A stretch of DNA of 48,375 bases. Source: Candidatus Sungbacteria bacterium RIFCSPLOWO2_02_FULL_51_17. GTDB lineage: Bacteria; Patescibacteriota; Minisyncoccia; Sungbacterales; GWA2-42-14. This document shows positions 2,844 to 41,178 of the stretch, piece by piece. The notes under the pieces are model-generated. The model had not been told where the DNA came from. It did no database searches and saw only the letters and a list, made by a program, of their open reading frames with translations. The stretch is taken from NCBI GenBank assembly GCA_001820785.1, contig MHQW01000032.1, positions 1 to 48,375 on the forward strand, written 5' to 3'. How positions within the stretch are numbered: the stretch's first letter is position 1; every line of letters begins with the position of its first letter. The position numbers and the translations under genes were made by a program.

Positions 2844-4372
2844 CCAAGCCGCGGGAATAAGCTCCCGCTTTTTTTTATCGCCAACCGTCCGTTTGTGAAC
2901 TCAATGTTCGCACGGATCTTTTCTGCGGTTTCCGGCAGAAACGGCGACAGAAAGTTTGCGATCGCACTTACAAAATACGCCGCCTCTTGGATCGTTTTTT
3001 CAAACACTGCCGGATCTTTTTCTGTCCACGGTTTTTTCTCATTGATGAATCTGTCGGCAGTGCCGATGAGCTGCCACACGTCGGCAAGCGCCTCGTTGAG
3101 GCGGAACGCCTGCATATGCCGTTCGTAATTGCCGAACGTTTCGGTGCATGCGGTAACCGTATCGGGACTGACATCATTTTTAAAATTGAACGCGGCCCTG
3201 CCGATCCGTTCACCAAGCGTTGAAACGCGCGATACCAGGTTTCCGATGCCGTTGGCAAGATCACCATTATAGCGCTCTTCAAATTTTGCATAGCTGAAGT
3301 CCCCGTCCTCCTGGGAGGGAAACTCGCGTAAAAAATAATACCGCACGGGATCTACGCCATATGTTTCTATGATGGTTTCGGGCATGATGACATTTCCCAC
3401 GGTCTTGGAAATTTTTGCTCCGTCAACATTCACGAATCCGTGAACTAGGAGTGTTTTGGGCAGGGGAAGTCCGGCAGAAAGGAGCATTCCCGGCCAGATT
3501 GCGGCATGGAATCGCAGATTGTCTTTGCCGATGACCTGGGTGTGCGCCGGCCACCATTTTTTGAACAGCTCTCCCGAGGCCACGTCTTCATGACCGTATC
3601 CAATGGCGGAAATATAATTTACGAGCGCATCGCACCATACATACATCGTTTGGCTTGGGTCATCGGGCACCGGGACTCCCCAGGAGAGGTCTTTTGACGG
3701 GCGCGAAAAACTCACGTCTTCAAGTCCGCGCTCAATAAGGGCGAGGATCTCATTCTTTTTTCCATTGGGAATCACCATGAATTTTCCGCCTCTAATCTTT
3801 TCGCCGATCGTTGCCGAGTATTTTGAGAGTTTGAAGAACCAATTCTCTTCTTCTACGGCCTCGGGTGCTTTTTGATGGTCCGCGCACACGCCATTTACCA
3901 GATCTTTTTCGGTGATGAATGCCTCATGTCCCACGCAGTAGAGTCCCCGGTATTTTTTCCGGTAGATATCGCCGGAGGCGGCAAGCGTTCTCCACATTTT
4001 TTGTGCGCCCGGCCAGTGGCGTTTTTGATCCGATGTGCGGATAAAGTCATCTGCGGATAGGTGTAACAGGCGATGAAACTTCCTGTATTTTTCTGCATTC
4101 TCATCAACGAGTGTCTGCGGGGTTTGCCCTAGCGCTTCGGCGGTGCGGACAATCTTTGCGCCATGTTCGTCGGTGCCCACGAGAAAGCGCACATCATAGC
4201 CCCGTATGCGGTGGTATCTGGCAAGAACATCGGCGATAAGCGGATCCAAAATATGCCCGATATGCGGACCGGCGTTCGCGTAGGGAATGGATGTTGTTAT
4301 GTAGTATGTTTTGTTCGGTGTGTTTGATCCCGCCTCTGAATGTGTGTTGGGATCTTGTTTGAAAGTTTTCAT
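2840..4372 (-). CDS. metG: Methionyl-tRNA synthetase
   Basis: TSIPYANAGPHIGHI, GTDEHGAKI, HGFVNVDGAKISKTVGNVI (KMSKS-like) motifs. Confidence 0.93.
   Translation of the reverse strand: MKTFKQDPNTHSEAGSNTPNKTYYITTSIPYANAGPHIGHILDPLIADVLARYHRIRGYDVRFLVGTDEHGAKIVRTAEALGQTPQTLVDENAEKYRKFHRLLHLSADDFIRTSDQKRHWPGAQKMWRTLAASGDIYRKKYRGLYCVGHEAFITEKDLVNGVCADHQKAPEAVEEENWFFKLSKYSATIGEKIRGGKFMVIPNGKKNEILALIERGLEDVSFSRPSKDLSWGVPVPDDPSQTMYVWCDALVNYISAIGYGHEDVASGELFKKWWPAHTQVIGKDNLRFHAAIWPGMLLSAGLPLPKTLLVHGFVNVDGAKISKTVGNVIMPETIIETYGVDPVRYYFLREFPSQEDGDFSYAKFEERYNGDLANGIGNLVSRVSTLGERIGRAAFNFKNDVSPDTVTACTETFGNYERHMQAFRLNEALADVWQLIGTADRFINEKKPWTEKDPAVFEKTIQEAAYFVSAIANFLSPFLPETAEKIRANIEFTNGRLAIKKSGSLFPRLG
2850..2877 (+). 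terminator. Terminator located inside the 3' end of the convergent metG gene
   Basis: GCGGGaataagctCCCGC followed by T7. Confidence 0.6.
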
Positions 4373-4425
4373 AATAGAACGGACCTGTATTACGGTACCC
4401 CCATCTTCTCCTCCGCGGGCTGGGT

Positions 4426-4454
4426 TTGACATACGTATAAATGTATGATACATA
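4426..4454 (+). promoter_or_regulatory. Promoter TTGACA-N17-TACATA
   Basis: TTGACA 4426-4431; TACATA 4449-4454. Confidence 0.65.
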
Positions 4455-4496
4455 AAACCCAGAACATTTCAAGTCGGTTTGGAGAAAGTAACACTC

Positions 4497-4922
4497 ATGA
4501 GAGGTCTAGTACCCATCGTAGTGCTTTGTATCTTTTTTGCCGGATGCGGAAGCAAGGAGGAGGCGGGTGTTCCCGTACTTTCTCCCGAGGCATCTAAGAA
4601 GGTAGAAAGCATTGCCAAGTCCGCCAATGACATAAAGAAGCGTTCGGAAGAGCGCACGCGTATCGCGAAAGGCCTTCCGGTGAGGTGTAGCACACTTGCT
4701 GGCAGATGCCCGGAATATCTTGAGGTATTTGCAGGAGACCCAGAGATCGTTTCCCGCATACATGCTCTTGCGAAGCGTGGGGTGGAGATTTTATACGATC
4801 CCTATGCTTACCGGGACGACCAGAGGATGTATATAGGTGTTGATGGTTTCGTGGTCATCACGAGGAACGCTTCTCGCGATGATGTGCGCAAGTTTTTCGG
4901 TCTTGCGCCTGTTGGGGAGTAG
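4497..4922 (+). CDS. Putative lipoprotein
   Basis: N-terminal signal MRGLVPIVVLCIFFAGCGS with lipobox FAGC. Confidence 0.7.
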   Translation: MRGLVPIVVLCIFFAGCGSKEEAGVPVLSPEASKKVESIAKSANDIKKRSEERTRIAKGLPVRCSTLAGRCPEYLEVFAGDPEIVSRIHALAKRGVEILYDPYAYRDDQRMYIGVDGFVVITRNASRDDVRKFFGLAPVGE

Positions 4923-4926
4923 CGTT

Positions 4927-5364
4927 ATGCGCGCTGTTCGGGGTATTGGTGTGCTGGGTTTGTGGCTTCTGACATCCACGGCGGCATGGGCAGAGGCGTC
5001 TCCATATTTCATAGAAGCGCCAGCCGAGGTATACGTCGGCATCGGTGTCATACTTTCTGTGCCCATCTTTGGCGAAGATGACCAGCGTCTGAAGAATTTT
5101 GGGGTGCATATTAAAGTATTGCGTACCGAAAAAAATGGACCGGCAGACAGAGCTGGCGTGCGTGCGGGAGATGCGATCGTGCGCCTGGAGGATAATGGGC
5201 GCGTGATCGTGCCGACTGGTACGGCAACATATGTAGAAGCGGTCGGGATCGTAAAAGGCGGCGACGAGGGGACGGTCATGCGCCTTGTCGTTCTTCGGCG
5301 CGATCGGTACGGGTTTTTGCGTGAAAAAGCGTTTGATATCAAGCGGGAGAGGATCATTCCCTAA
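4927..5364 (+). CDS. Secreted single PDZ-domain protein
   Basis: Signal peptide MRAVRGIGVLGLWLLTSTAAWA; PDZ-like GPADRAGVRAGDAIVRLEDNG. Confidence 0.7.
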   Translation: MRAVRGIGVLGLWLLTSTAAWAEASPYFIEAPAEVYVGIGVILSVPIFGEDDQRLKNFGVHIKVLRTEKNGPADRAGVRAGDAIVRLEDNGRVIVPTGTATYVEAVGIVKGGDEGTVMRLVVLRRDRYGFLREKAFDIKRERIIP

Positions 5365-5373
5365 ACATGTTGG

Positions 5374-5404
5374 TGTGCGGCGCCATGGCGCCGCTTTTTA
5401 TTTT
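5374..5404 (+). terminator. Terminator
   Basis: GCGGCGCCatGGCGCCGC followed by T-rich run. Confidence 0.7.
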
Positions 5405-5441
5405 TTGTAGTATGAAGCGTGATCTCTGGCACCATTCTTTT

Positions 5442-7178
5442 CTAAGAGAGAATTCGGTATCCTATTTCCTCTATTCCCTTGATATTTTTTAACCGCATAA
5501 GGAGCTTGTCCAGGGCTTCTTTATTCTTTATTGGCACCTGCACAGTGATGACGGGGTAGAGGCGGTTCTTTGTCTCGGTCGCGATGCTTTTCATATTGAT
5601 CCTCATGTCTGCGACCGCCCGTGATATGTCTTTTAAGAGGCCGATGCGGTCGCGCACTGTGAGCCGAAGCTCGGTTGTCTGCCCTCCTTTTTGGGCGAAC
5701 ACGGAATGTTCGCGGGTTTGCCGCAGGGTGAGTTGGATCTTTTTTCGCGCTCCAGCCGTTTTTACGAAGCCGAGCCAGTCGCGGTTCGGTTTTTTGTTTT
5801 TTTGCCGGATGATATCAACCACATCTCCGTTATGTAATCCGTGGTCCAGCGGCACCATCTTACCGTTGATCTTTGCTCCTGCCGCTTGATTTCCGATGTC
5901 GGTGTGCACCTGGTAGGCGAAATCAACCGGCGTGGCGCCTTCCGGAAGGTCAATGACGTCGCCTTTTGGCGTTAACACGAAGATGCGGTTCTTGAAAAAA
6001 TCTATCTTGAGGGACTCCAAGAATTCTTCGGGGCGGCGGAATTCTTTTTGCCAGTCCCGCAATTGATTTACCCACTCAAGCTGTTTTTTATTCGCGAATA
6101 ACACACCCTTTTGTTTATAGGCCGCGCTTGTTTTTCCTTCCGAGTAGGACCAATGAGCCGCGATACCGCGCTCCGCCTCAACATGCATTTCATGTGTGCG
6201 TATCTGGAATTCCGTGACGGTGCCGTCGGGGCCGAAGATCGTCGTGTGAATGGAGCGATATCCGTTCGGTTTCGGGAGGGCGATATAGTCCTTCACGAGT
6301 CCCGGCATTGGCCGCCAGAGTGCGTGGATGACCCCGAGGACCGCATAGCATTCTTCAACTGACGAGACGATCACGCGAATGGCAATAAGATCAAAGATTT
6401 TGTTCATGTCCATGTCGTACTTCAGCAGTTTTTTGTACAAGCTGAAAAGGTGCTTTGCTCTTCCGTGAATGTCGGTATCGCGCATGTTCTCTTTTTCAAG
6501 TTCTTCGCGGACGATCGGAATGAGGCGCGCAACGTAAGCCCTTCGTTTCTCAATGGGGTCTTTCATCTGATTCTCAAGCCACGCGCATTCTTTCGGGTAG
6601 ACGAAGGGGAACGCAAGATCTTCCAAGTATCCTTTTATTTCGCCGATGCCTAGCCGATAGGCAAGCGGCGCGTAGATCTCAAGGGTTTCAAGCGCGATGC
6701 GCTTTTGTTTTTCGGGGGGAAGCGCTTTAAGCGTTTCCATATTGTGCGTGCGGTCCATCAGTTTGATAAGGACGACCCGGATGTCTTCTGCGACCGCAAG
6801 AAGCATTTTGCGAAGATTTTCCGCGTCGCGTTCGGTGCCGTGGAATTGTATCTTATCAAGTTTTGTGACCCCGTCTACGAGGAACGCGATCTCTTTAGAA
6901 AAATTCTCTTCTATCGTTTCAATTGAACAGGCGGTGTCTTCGCACACATCGTGAAGAAGTGCGGCCGCGATGGACGCCGTATCAAGTCCGAGATCGGCCA
7001 CCCGAAGCGCTACCGCAAGCGGGTGGTTAATGTATGGATCGCCGGATGTCCGTTTTTGGGCGCCATGCGCCTCCTTTGCGAACTCATATGCGCGCATGAT
7101 AAGTTCCTGCTCCTCTTGAGAGCAGTGGAGTTTTTCCTTTGCCTTTTCTACGATCGCTCGTATATTGACAGTCGTCAT
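5442..7178 (-). CDS. RelA/SpoT homolog (bifunctional-type (p)ppGpp synthetase/hydrolase)
   Basis: HD domain (AALLHDVCEDT), synthetase domain (GYRSIHTTIFGPDG), TGS (VFVLTPKGDVIDLPEGATPVDFAYQVHTDIG), C-terminal ACT. Confidence 0.92.
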   Translation of the reverse strand: MTTVNIRAIVEKAKEKLHCSQEEQELIMRAYEFAKEAHGAQKRTSGDPYINHPLAVALRVADLGLDTASIAAALLHDVCEDTACSIETIEENFSKEIAFLVDGVTKLDKIQFHGTERDAENLRKMLLAVAEDIRVVLIKLMDRTHNMETLKALPPEKQKRIALETLEIYAPLAYRLGIGEIKGYLEDLAFPFVYPKECAWLENQMKDPIEKRRAYVARLIPIVREELEKENMRDTDIHGRAKHLFSLYKKLLKYDMDMNKIFDLIAIRVIVSSVEECYAVLGVIHALWRPMPGLVKDYIALPKPNGYRSIHTTIFGPDGTVTEFQIRTHEMHVEAERGIAAHWSYSEGKTSAAYKQKGVLFANKKQLEWVNQLRDWQKEFRRPEEFLESLKIDFFKNRIFVLTPKGDVIDLPEGATPVDFAYQVHTDIGNQAAGAKINGKMVPLDHGLHNGDVVDIIRQKNKKPNRDWLGFVKTAGARKKIQLTLRQTREHSVFAQKGGQTTELRLTVRDRIGLLKDISRAVADMRINMKSIATETKNRLYPVITVQVPIKNKEALDKLLMRLKNIKGIEEIGYRILS

Positions 7179-34946: not shown

Positions 34947-37283
34947 ATGGGTTCCAAAACAACAGCACCATTCAAGTCGGTTAAAAAACGGGACGGACGC
35001 GTCGTAGCGTTTGACTCGGGGCGTATTGAGAACGCGGTATTTCGCGCGATGGAGGTCGCTGGTGAGGGTGATCTTACCCGCGACCCGGGACGGGTCGCCG
35101 AGCGGGTCATAGCTGACCTTAAAAAACGGTTTCCTGCCGCACATGTTCCTTCCATTGAAGAGATCCAGGACTCGGTAGAAACCGCATTAATACTTCTTGA
35201 TTTTCCCAAGACGGCCAAGGGATACATTTTATATCGCTCAAAGCGGGCAGAGCTTCGCCTGAAGGAGCGGATCATTCCCGAGCACGTAAAAAAACTTGTT
35301 ACCGAGTCAAAGAAATATTTTCAGAACGCTCTTTCAGAATTTATTTATTACCGGACCTATTCGCGGTGGATAGAGGGTGAGGGCCGTCGGGAGACGTGGG
35401 TGGAAACGGTTGATCGTTATATGGGCTTCATGCGCGAGAACATCGGAAATAAGTTGAAAGATGCCGAGTACGCGGATGTTCGTGATGCAATACTGAAACA
35501 GGAGGTCATGCCGTCCATGCGTCTCATGTGGTCGGCGGGAGACGCCGCGCGCAAAACAAATGTCTCGGCATATAATTGTTCGTTCATCGCGCCTTCTAAA
35601 GTGAATGACTTTGCCGAGATCATTTATCTTCTCATGTGTGGAACGGGCGTCGGTTTTTCGGTGGAATCCCAAAGCGTACAAAAACTTCCCATCGTAAAAC
35701 GGCAAACCGGAAAAAAATTGAAGACGCATGTTATCGTTGATTCCAAAGAAGGATGGGGCGATGCGTTAACGCTCGGACTGAAGACGTGGTACGGCGGGAA
35801 GGATGTTGATTTTGATTATTCCCAGTTGCGTCCGGCGGGAGCGCGTCTTATCACCATGGGCGGAAGGAGCTCCGGTCCCGAGCCGTTACGCGCGTTACTT
35901 GATTTTTCACGGATGAAGATCGTGTCACGGCAAGGAAAACGCCTTACCAACCTTGATGTTCACGATGTTATTTGCAAGATTGGCGAGGTGGTGGTCATGG
36001 GAGGGGTGCGCCGCTCCGCTCTTATTTCGCTTTCCGACCTTGATGACGAGGAGATGCGGAATGCCAAAACAGGCCAGTTTTACGTGAACGACCCGCATCG
36101 GGCCATGGCGAACAACTCAGCCGTATATAATGGAAAACCCTCGGCGAAGCAGTTCCTTGAGGAGTGGCTTGCGCTTACGAAATCGGGTTCCGGGGAGCGC
36201 GGCATCTTTAACCGGGGAGGGCTTAAGGCACAGCTTCCGGCTCGGCGCTGGAAGGTGTTTGCGCCCGATAATGCGACATCAGGAACGAATCCGTGTGGGG
36301 AGATAGTTCTCAAATCAAAGCAATTTTGCAACCTATCCGAGGTGGTGGCGCGAGCCGAAGATACCGAGGAGTCGCTTATGCGAAAAGTCCGGCTTGCGGC
36401 AATTCTCGGCACCTATCAGTCAACGCTTACGAACTTCCGATACATTTCAAAGGAGTGGAAGAAGAACTGCGAGACGGAGCGGTTGCTCGGCGTCTCCATC
36501 ACGGGCCAGTGGGATTCGCCCGCCGTTCGCGACGAACATGTTCTTCGTAAACTTCGTGATCGCGCCGTTGAGGTGAACAAGGAATATGCGAAATGCATGG
36601 GCGTGAATCAGTCAACGTGTGTTACCTGCGTAAAGCCCTCCGGAACGGTTTCCCAGTTGGTCAATGCTTCTTCGGGCATGCACCCGCGTCATGCGCAATA
36701 CTATATTCGCCGCGTTCGCATCTCGGCGTCCGATCCGCTGTTTCACATGCTGAAAGACCAGAAGTTTCCGTATTATCCAGAAGTTGGTCAGCTTGAGCAC
36801 TCGGCGACGACATATGTTCTTGAGTTTCCCGTCAAAGCTCCGAAGTCAAAGCATTTTAAGGACGACCTTACGGCATTGGAACAGCTGGAATACTGGAAAA
36901 TGGTGAAAGAAAATTTTACGGAACACAATCCGTCCGTGACCATATCCGTCGGGGAGGATGAGTGGGTGGAAACCGCGAATTGGATCTATAAGCATTGGGA
37001 GATACTTGGCGGCCTTTCGTTCCTTCCGCGCACCGATCACGTCTACAAGCTTGCGCCTTACGAAGAAATAACGGAGGAGCGATACAACGATATGATGGCA
37101 CGCGTGCCTGATGTTGATTTTGCTTCCATCGTTACCTACGAAGAGGTTGATCAGACCGCGGGCGCACATGAACTTGCATGCGTTGCGGGGGTGTGTGAAA
37201 TAGACATCCCTTCCGGAACTATGCAGGCCGCCGCCGCATCATCCACGGCGCAACCAGACCATCCGCAGGTAAATGAGGCATAG
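34947..37283 (+). CDS. nrdJ: Adenosylcobalamin-dependent (class II) ribonucleotide reductase with N-terminal ATP-cone
   Basis: ATP-cone VKKRDGRVVAFDSGRIENAVFRAM; NCSFIAPSKV; CGTGVGFSVE; NPCGEI; CVKPSGTVSQL; C-terminal CVAGVC. Confidence 0.9.
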   Translation: MGSKTTAPFKSVKKRDGRVVAFDSGRIENAVFRAMEVAGEGDLTRDPGRVAERVIADLKKRFPAAHVPSIEEIQDSVETALILLDFPKTAKGYILYRSKRAELRLKERIIPEHVKKLVTESKKYFQNALSEFIYYRTYSRWIEGEGRRETWVETVDRYMGFMRENIGNKLKDAEYADVRDAILKQEVMPSMRLMWSAGDAARKTNVSAYNCSFIAPSKVNDFAEIIYLLMCGTGVGFSVESQSVQKLPIVKRQTGKKLKTHVIVDSKEGWGDALTLGLKTWYGGKDVDFDYSQLRPAGARLITMGGRSSGPEPLRALLDFSRMKIVSRQGKRLTNLDVHDVICKIGEVVVMGGVRRSALISLSDLDDEEMRNAKTGQFYVNDPHRAMANNSAVYNGKPSAKQFLEEWLALTKSGSGERGIFNRGGLKAQLPARRWKVFAPDNATSGTNPCGEIVLKSKQFCNLSEVVARAEDTEESLMRKVRLAAILGTYQSTLTNFRYISKEWKKNCETERLLGVSITGQWDSPAVRDEHVLRKLRDRAVEVNKEYAKCMGVNQSTCVTCVKPSGTVSQLVNASSGMHPRHAQYYIRRVRISASDPLFHMLKDQKFPYYPEVGQLEHSATTYVLEFPVKAPKSKHFKDDLTALEQLEYWKMVKENFTEHNPSVTISVGEDEWVETANWIYKHWEILGGLSFLPRTDHVYKLAPYEEITEERYNDMMARVPDVDFASIVTYEEVDQTAGAHELACVAGVCEIDIPSGTMQAAAASSTAQPDHPQVNEA

Positions 37284-37416: not shown

Positions 37417-37917
37417 ATGAAAAGGAAACCGATTCTCTTTTTCGCCGCCATTCTCCCCATTTTTCTGATGTTTGCGCCATTCGTGTTGGCAGTTGACGCT
37501 GTAAATCAGCCGACCACAGAGCTTCTGGAGAAAAGAGTTCATAAACTCCTGGATCATGTGAAGGCAAAAGAGTTTGATGCGGTGTGGGACATGGCGGCAA
37601 GGAATATAAAAAATGGAAATGAAAACGACAAACATGGATATGTTAAAGAGCTGTCCGATCTTTTCAGTGATTCAGTTTTTGAGTATGGCCCAATGAGTGT
37701 AAGGCGCATCAACCAAATGTTAGGAGTTTCGAGCTCTTTGTGGACGCTTCGCTCTGAGAAAGATATGTCCCAGATGCCGATGAGTGAGTGCCAGGGAGTG
37801 GTTTGGGTATGGGAGAATGATAGTTGGTATTTTGCTAGGACTTATGTATGTCATTTTGAACGTGAAGTTATAGAAGATATGATGCGATACTCTGATATCA
37901 AAAACGCACCGAAGTAA
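37417..37917 (+). CDS. Secreted hypothetical protein, paralog A
   Basis: Signal peptide; VWVWENDSWYF...MMRYSDIKNAPK shared with next ORF. Confidence 0.75.
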   Translation: MKRKPILFFAAILPIFLMFAPFVLAVDAVNQPTTELLEKRVHKLLDHVKAKEFDAVWDMAARNIKNGNENDKHGYVKELSDLFSDSVFEYGPMSVRRINQMLGVSSSLWTLRSEKDMSQMPMSECQGVVWVWENDSWYFARTYVCHFEREVIEDMMRYSDIKNAPK

Positions 37918-38096: not shown

Positions 38097-38591
38097 ATGC
38101 ATACGGAAAATTCTCTGGTGCGACTTGTTGTCTTTTCCGTGCTTGTGTTCTTGATCGCAGTTCCAGCCATGGTTGTGGCGGAGACCGCGCCCTCGCGGGA
38201 TGAACTTTTGCAAAAACGCGCAGATGACATGTGCGCGAATATTGAGCAGAAAAATTTCAATGCTATCTGGGAGGCGCTTGCCGCCAGCACTCAAGAGGCG
38301 AATGGCGGGGTGAGTCGCGCATTTGCCCTTATGCACGAGCACTCCTTCGGCGGTAAGACGGTTTTTTGCGCAAATGCGCCGAAAATACGCAGGATCAATG
38401 AGTGGTTGGGCTTGTCCCACTATAGCATAGTCGTTGTTAGTGATAGTGACACCACTGTCGCGTGTGACGGCATGGTGTGGGTGTGGGAGCGTGAACACTG
38501 GTACTTTTTCCAGCACTTCTCTTGCGCACGTGAGCAGGAGGCGATTGATTCTATGATGAAGTGGTCGGATATCAAAAACGCGCCGAAATAG
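38097..38591 (+). CDS. Secreted hypothetical protein, paralog B
   Basis: Signal peptide; MVWVWEREHWYF...MMKWSDIKNAPK. Confidence 0.75.
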   Translation: MHTENSLVRLVVFSVLVFLIAVPAMVVAETAPSRDELLQKRADDMCANIEQKNFNAIWEALAASTQEANGGVSRAFALMHEHSFGGKTVFCANAPKIRRINEWLGLSHYSIVVVSDSDTTVACDGMVWVWEREHWYFFQHFSCAREQEAIDSMMKWSDIKNAPK

Positions 38592-39897: not shown

Positions 39898-40066
39898 TGT
39901 TATGCCCGATCTTTATGGAGAAGACCCGTTCCGCATGTCGCGGAGCGGGTTTTGTGTTTCTTCTCTCATATCGTCTGCGCTTTTCGCTGTATAGGGGTTT
40001 CGCGTTGAAAAAGATGGCGGGTGTGCTACATACTACATCAGCACCTAAACAACAGCGCGCCTTGCC

Positions 40067-41146
40067 ATGCTGGTATCAGATGCGGCAGTTCGTGACAGCT
40101 TAAGCGTATTACGCTCCAACGCTACGCGCACGTATGTGTCGGTTGATCCTGCGGCGATCACGCATCTTGCGCAAAAATTAAAAGCCGCAGGGAAGATCAT
40201 TCCGCATTGGGATACGCCCTATTTGCATCCCACAGATGACATGGCGTTTGCCACCCATGCGATACCGGCATGCATGCTTGATTTTAATTTTTGGATGCTT
40301 CATGCGCCGGACGAAGTGTTCACCGTTAATAATATGTATGAAGAGCCGCCGCATTTTCCCGGCTCGTTCGCGAAGGATTATTGCTTTTGGCGGGCGTTTC
40401 TTGGTGGTCCCGTGACGGCATCCGGCCTTTGCATGCATTTTGACTCGTTGCATGCGACCGAGCATTTCTTTCGCGGTGTGAATCGCATACCATTTGTGGA
40501 AGAGAGAATGCTCATGATGCAGGAGTACGGCTCCGTTCTTGAGCATCGTTTCAGAGGCGGCGCCCTTCATATATATGAAGAGGCCGAGTGGGATGCGGCG
40601 CATCTCGTTGAGCTTCTTGTTGCGGCATTTCCCTACGGGTTTGGCCGCGATACCACACTTCTTTCGGTTCCACGATCCGATTGGGAGTGCGCACATCTTG
40701 GCGGGCATTTCTTCACCGGCGATCGGGGCGGTCCTGCCCTTACGTTTTCGTTCCATAAGCGAGCCAAACTTGCGGCGCTTGCCTACCAGGGAAGGGCGCT
40801 AAAGCGTGGATCGCGCCTGAAACCGCTTTCTCGTATGCGTGAAATTGTGGCGGTTCCCGATTTTCATGTTGCACGCTTCTTGCATGCCGAGGGTGTTCTG
40901 GTGTATGCGCCCGAATTACTTGGGGCGATCACGGCGCGAAAGTTTCTCTGGCCCGGGAGTCAGTCCGAGGTTGAGATACGCGCTTCCATTACCGAGGCAA
41001 ACTTCGCATTGTTACGAGAACTCAATGGCGAGGACGTCAGCTCGCCCTCCGATCTTTGGGATATTGTTCCGTTGGATGCCGCCGAGTGGTTCGGGGGCAA
41101 GAACGTTTCATTTCCGCACCACCTTACGCCGGGAACGAATTACTAA
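40067..41146 (+). CDS. Queuosine salvage protein-like (DUF2419/Qng1 family)
   Basis: HPTDD...ACMLDFNFWML; IPFVEERMLMMQEYGSVLEHRFRGGALHIYEEAEWDAAHLVELLVAAFP; FHKRAKLAA; VPDFHVARFLHAEGVLVYAPELL; GSQSEVEIRAS. Confidence 0.7.
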   Translation: MLVSDAAVRDSLSVLRSNATRTYVSVDPAAITHLAQKLKAAGKIIPHWDTPYLHPTDDMAFATHAIPACMLDFNFWMLHAPDEVFTVNNMYEEPPHFPGSFAKDYCFWRAFLGGPVTASGLCMHFDSLHATEHFFRGVNRIPFVEERMLMMQEYGSVLEHRFRGGALHIYEEAEWDAAHLVELLVAAFPYGFGRDTTLLSVPRSDWECAHLGGHFFTGDRGGPALTFSFHKRAKLAALAYQGRALKRGSRLKPLSRMREIVAVPDFHVARFLHAEGVLVYAPELLGAITARKFLWPGSQSEVEIRASITEANFALLRELNGEDVSSPSDLWDIVPLDAAEWFGGKNVSFPHHLTPGTNY

Positions 41147-41150
41147 ATGT

Positions 41151-41178
41151 AAAAAACCTCATGATGAGGTTTTTTCTT
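41151..41178. terminator. Bidirectional terminator
   Basis: AAAAAACCTCatGATGAGGTTTTTT. Confidence 0.8.

Follow-up and report, generated by a model that had tools for sequence, protein, structure and literature searches.

The window, by which we mean the whole 48,375-nucleotide stretch of DNA that was analyzed, contains at 40067-41146 an open reading frame with an ATG start that encodes a protein of 359 amino acids. The main features of the locus are listed below.

34947..37283, + strand: ribonucleotide reductase; its best NCBIfam match, adenosylcobalamin-dependent RTPR, is below that family's cut-off
39921..39953, + strand: terminator-like hairpin (consensus match, 14 pairs), after the upstream membrane-protein ORF and before the Q_salvage gene
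40067..41146, + strand: Q_salvage/Qng1-family (DUF2419) gene, 359 aa, assigned by PF10343, PDB Qng1 matches and hhalign
41151..41175, + strand: terminator-like hairpin AAAAAACCTCATGATGAGGTTTTTT (11 pairs), directly 3' of the stop codon

The Q_salvage gene is isolated, flanked on both sides by the terminator-like hairpins. Upstream of it are a small membrane-protein ORF, for which no Pfam match was found, an ECF sigma factor, two tandem paralogues and the ribonucleotide reductase. The tandem paralogues (37417-37917 and 38097-38591, + strand) are 33% identical and had no Pfam match; they are small, have signal-like N-termini, look secreted, and each ends in SDIKNAPK. Downstream lie two opposite-strand ORFs followed by mnmA (from 41876), which was ruled out as an operon partner by the intervening terminator-like hairpin and opposite-strand ORFs. 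An Rfam search of the window gave no match, and thus no preQ1 riboswitch, and no tRNA genes were found in the window.

The initial annotation had proposed a Qng1/DUF2419-like queuosine-salvage enzyme on the basis of a list of DUF2419/Q_salvage motifs, all of which were found in the translation. The HMM comparison it suggested supported this interpretation: the whole protein matched PF10343.14 (Q_salvage) at 70.8 bits (E=1.8e-19) against a curated cut-off of 25 bits, and PF10343 was the sole Pfam family at E<=1. In the genome search, both halves of the protein passed this cut-off separately. A single-sequence search of PDB sequences returned Qng1/DUF2419 chains only (best E=3.4e-12), and a clade profile built from four sequences matched Sphaerobacter Qng1 nearly full-length, at positions 19-348 of 350 (E=1.1e-27). 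Near full-length alignment was obtained to Sphaerobacter thermophilus Qng1 (7u07, 7uk3, 7u91) and to a second Qng1 entry (7ugk/8dl3), and hhalign of the window protein's clade against canonical members from the phylum gave E=3e-39 over 292 columns reaching the C-terminus. The PDB profile alignment and hhalign both indicate the full-length Qng1 domain architecture. An NCBIfam search with the protein gave no match, and routine annotation may leave genes of this divergent Q_salvage branch unnamed. An AlphaFold model made with the protein and three homologues, four sequences only, reached pLDDT 39.7 and pTM 0.36 and was not used. Judged by sequence comparison, the likeness to the Qng1 family far exceeds chance, and the window protein is a divergent member of this already known Qng1/Q_salvage family.

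All four named active-site positions are kept in the window protein, as aligned with Sphaerobacter Qng1.

40757..40759, + strand: K231 codon; aligns with K199 (C in PDB 7u5a)
40859..40861, + strand: D265 codon; aligns with D231 (N in PDB 7ulc)
41075..41077, + strand: D337 codon; aligns with D298 (active-site residue, PMC11592518)
41087..41089, + strand: W341 codon; aligns with W302

D298 and W302 are named as active-site residues of the Sphaerobacter enzyme (PMC11592518). K199 and D231 are presumed catalytic because these positions are mutated in PDB variants, K199 to C in 7u5a and D231 to N in 7ulc, as read from the alignments. The motifs FHKRAKL and DFHVARFL, which hold catalytic positions, are in register with crystallized Qng1 in the PDB alignments. 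An upstream WDI segment can mislead the matching of D337 and W341, and the register was fixed with the close homologues L079, L080 and L082. The active-site residues on which the initial annotation had staked its proposal are present by this alignment.

The genome that contains the window (G000; 1.24 Mb, completeness estimate 100%) carries a single tgt (C43:74612-75391), which does not adjoin the Q_salvage gene. This tgt is a fragment of 275 aa that ends at the contig end, and the catalytic Asp and zinc site lie outside its readable part. Family searches for QueA, QueG and QueH, the Q-synthesis genes covered, found none of the three in G000. The controls were positive, both in control genomes and in the relatives G174, G086 and G087, which carry QueA and QueH. 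The absence of QueA, QueG and QueH leaves no known route from preQ1-tRNA to Q-tRNA, so outside queuosine would be needed. It had been suggested that tgt and a queuine/Q transporter be sought in the genome; tgt is there, and the Q-precursor transporters QPTR (PF02592) and QueT (PF06177) were not detected by family search. Q precursors are also carried by other transporter families (PMC11130926), and a salvage route is therefore possible without QPTR or QueT.

Val233 of the bacterial TGT would sterically hinder the cyclopentene of queuine, and human QTRT1 has glycine at that position (PMC6165067); queuine-salvaging bacterial TGTs typically have the pocket GG[LS][AS]G (PMC11570991). The G000 TGT has GGFLG, in which the valine is lost and glycine is present; this fits GGxxG, with two middle residues that depart from the published GG[LS][AS]G. 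All four QueA-bearing relatives keep Val or Ile in the pocket (GGLAVG, GGLSVG or GGETIG); in genomes where QueA was searched for and not found, 3 of 21 readable TGTs do so (Fisher P=0.003, a value that ignores relatedness). Readable TGTs encoded next to Q_salvage all have GGDLG, GGSLG or GGALG. Phe at the Tyr106 position was dropped as a queuine marker, since QueA-bearing TGTs have Phe too. Eight genomes that carry neither QueA nor Q_salvage (G025, G075, G132, G163, G185, G214, G223 and G231) have TGTs with an even shorter pocket loop, in which GGSF or GGSY runs straight into a stretch of the KKD/KED/KKQ type.

The bacterium belongs to the Patescibacteria. Of 380 genomes sampled from this phylum, 18 (about 5%) carry Q_salvage, as do 36 of 384 sampled from the class (9%), so the enzyme is no isolated case. 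In six of 42 Q_salvage loci (L005, L060, L062, L066, L076 and L081), tgt is the direct neighbor on the same strand. These six come from five families, with tgt either upstream or downstream, and a rough model of uniform placement predicts about 0.2 such cases by chance (Poisson P~6e-8). The linkage supports direct salvage, in which Q or Q-5'-phosphate would yield queuine for insertion into tRNA. Beyond the six linked loci, G583 holds a second tgt–Q_salvage pair. Its two pairs, L115 and L116, lie about 26 kb apart (G583:C1, about 563-604 kb). Their TGTs share 71% identity and their Q_salvage proteins 57%, which suggests that the two-gene unit was duplicated. No importer candidate emerged when the seven tgt–Q_salvage neighborhoods (L111-L117) were compared for a shared third gene such as a transporter. 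An AI-2E-family transporter was set aside, as it recurs only in L112 and L114, two genomes of one family, as was a gene shared by L114 and L117, which in L117 matches a cation P-type ATPase. Genomes with tgt and with neither QueA nor Q_salvage are common in the class. These genomes indicate that TGT does not require Q_salvage, and they suggest direct queuine uptake or other uses. Within a limited body of open-access literature, no description of a qng1 and queuine-type tgt pairing in Patescibacteria was found.

Family membership, conservation of the catalytic residues, the pathway genes present and absent, the sequence of the TGT pocket and the linkage to tgt seen in relatives are established; from them we infer a reaction, a substrate, import and an outside source of queuosine. 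It is likely, as far as sequences can tell, that the window protein is a divergent Qng1-type N-glycosidase that frees queuine for a queuine-using TGT, and that the bacterium depends on queuosine from outside. The enzyme would hydrolyze queuosine-5'-monophosphate, and perhaps queuosine, from degraded tRNA, and would release free queuine and ribose-5-phosphate. The single TGT, with a pocket that lacks the queuine-blocking valine, would then swap G34 of tRNAs with GUN anticodons directly for queuine. The queuine is probably scavenged from the tRNA debris of other organisms, and a partner may be the source.

Like Chlamydia trachomatis, which salvages queuine directly with a queuine-specific bacterial TGT and has no QueA, QueG or QueH (PMC11570991), G000 keeps tgt alone among the classical genes tested and has lost the pocket valine; unlike C. 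trachomatis, it has no QPTR transporter and has a dedicated predicted nucleosidase. Clostridioides difficile uses a QueK nucleoside hydrolase/QueL route (PMC11570991, PMC11130926); the proposed window enzyme would likewise liberate queuine from Q, but QueK belongs to a protein family unrelated to Qng1 (PMC11130926). The two-step logic proposed here, Qng1 followed by a queuine-using TGT, resembles eukaryotic salvage by QNG1 and QTRT1/QTRT2, although the G000 TGT is of the bacterial type and the genome is that of a host-dependent-type bacterium. The window protein shares with Sphaerobacter thermophilus Qng1 the equivalents of K199, D231, D298 and W302, and differs from crystallized Qng1 in its low identity, its lack of PKW and TIW, and its placement in a patescibacterial clade of its own with a GRA motif.

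An alternative, which we consider unlikely, is that Qng1 chemistry is retained for nutrition and not for tRNA modification: the enzyme would cleave Q-5'-MP or other modified nucleotides of scavenged RNA for ribose-5-phosphate, or clear them. Six genomes that carry Q_salvage and have no tgt detectable by profile and protein search are consistent with such a role (G411, locus L080; G451, L079; G431, L075; G077, L006; G182, L012/L020; G236, L009). Two of them, G411 and G451, hold the closest homologues of the window protein beyond its own family, and together with G431 they belong to family f182, in which all three sampled Q_salvage-bearing members lack a detectable tgt. The completeness estimates of the six genomes are 94-99%, so missing sequence can hardly account for every absence of tgt, above all for the three of three in f182. 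The four aligned catalytic residues are kept in the proteins of G411, G451, G431, G077 and G236 (G182 is outside the residue table). Q_salvage may thus have a role apart from TGT in these genomes, which raises the question of a second use of the enzyme. G000, however, lacks QueA, QueG and QueH and carries a tgt whose pocket resembles the queuine type, and linkage to tgt is seen repeatedly within the phylum, once in the window protein's own clade. Both observations favor queuine salvage for tRNA modification in G000.

Less probable still is that the window protein is a paralogue with the Q_salvage fold that acts on another glycosidic substrate and has no queuosine activity. Its identity to canonical members from the phylum is 22-28%, the canonical invariants PKW and TIW are missing, and an insertion precedes the KRAK motif. 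Against a change of substrate, the protein keeps the four named active-site positions and most other family-invariant residues, and its relatives include a locus that adjoins tgt. In the tree, the window protein falls within a clade of 17 rows (ultrafast bootstrap 100) that also contains the tgt-linked L066; its nearest neighbor is L082, from its own family, followed by L079 and L080. This patescibacterial clade is separate and well supported, and its members share a conserved GRA motif. G564, of the same family as G000, carries a canonical Q_salvage copy (L058) instead, which suggests transfer or differential loss. Two further proteins, L018 (G129) and L019 (G259), gave weak PF10343 matches; L018 has Glu at the K199 position, a Cys-containing tail and the ending ...DTNFY, and the two could perhaps form a distinct related family.

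Assembly contamination, which a metagenome-type assembly of 49 contigs with a contamination estimate of 1.04% might invite, is hardly credible as the origin of the locus and is already largely refuted by a conserved neighborhood. Of the five other members sampled from its family, three also carry Q_salvage. A scan of genome contigs gave no homologue with the window protein alone and three named homologues with a four-sequence alignment. The nearest named homologue, 39% identical, is from Candidatus Sungbacteria RIFCSPLOWO2_01_FULL_47_32 (L105), where a ribonucleotide reductase (3558-5885) also immediately precedes Q_salvage (at 6001). This shared gene order places the window genome near the Sungbacteria lineage and indicates that the locus is native; it also bears out the earlier suggestion of a CPR-type genome.

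Taken more broadly, and tentatively, since we give it slightly less than even chances, a sizeable minority of Patescibacteria may handle queuine much as eukaryotes do. They would combine a Qng1-type nucleosidase with a bacterial TGT re-tuned to queuine, Q nucleotides from the tRNA of a partner or the environment would enter by undescribed import, and in some lineages the nucleosidase would have outlived tgt with a second use. If this is true, it would point to an as yet undescribed importer of Q or Q-5'-MP, and the two-gene tgt-qng1 unit would serve as a simple genomic marker of queuine dependency. Like eukaryotes, these reduced bacteria would then need other organisms to supply a tRNA modification.
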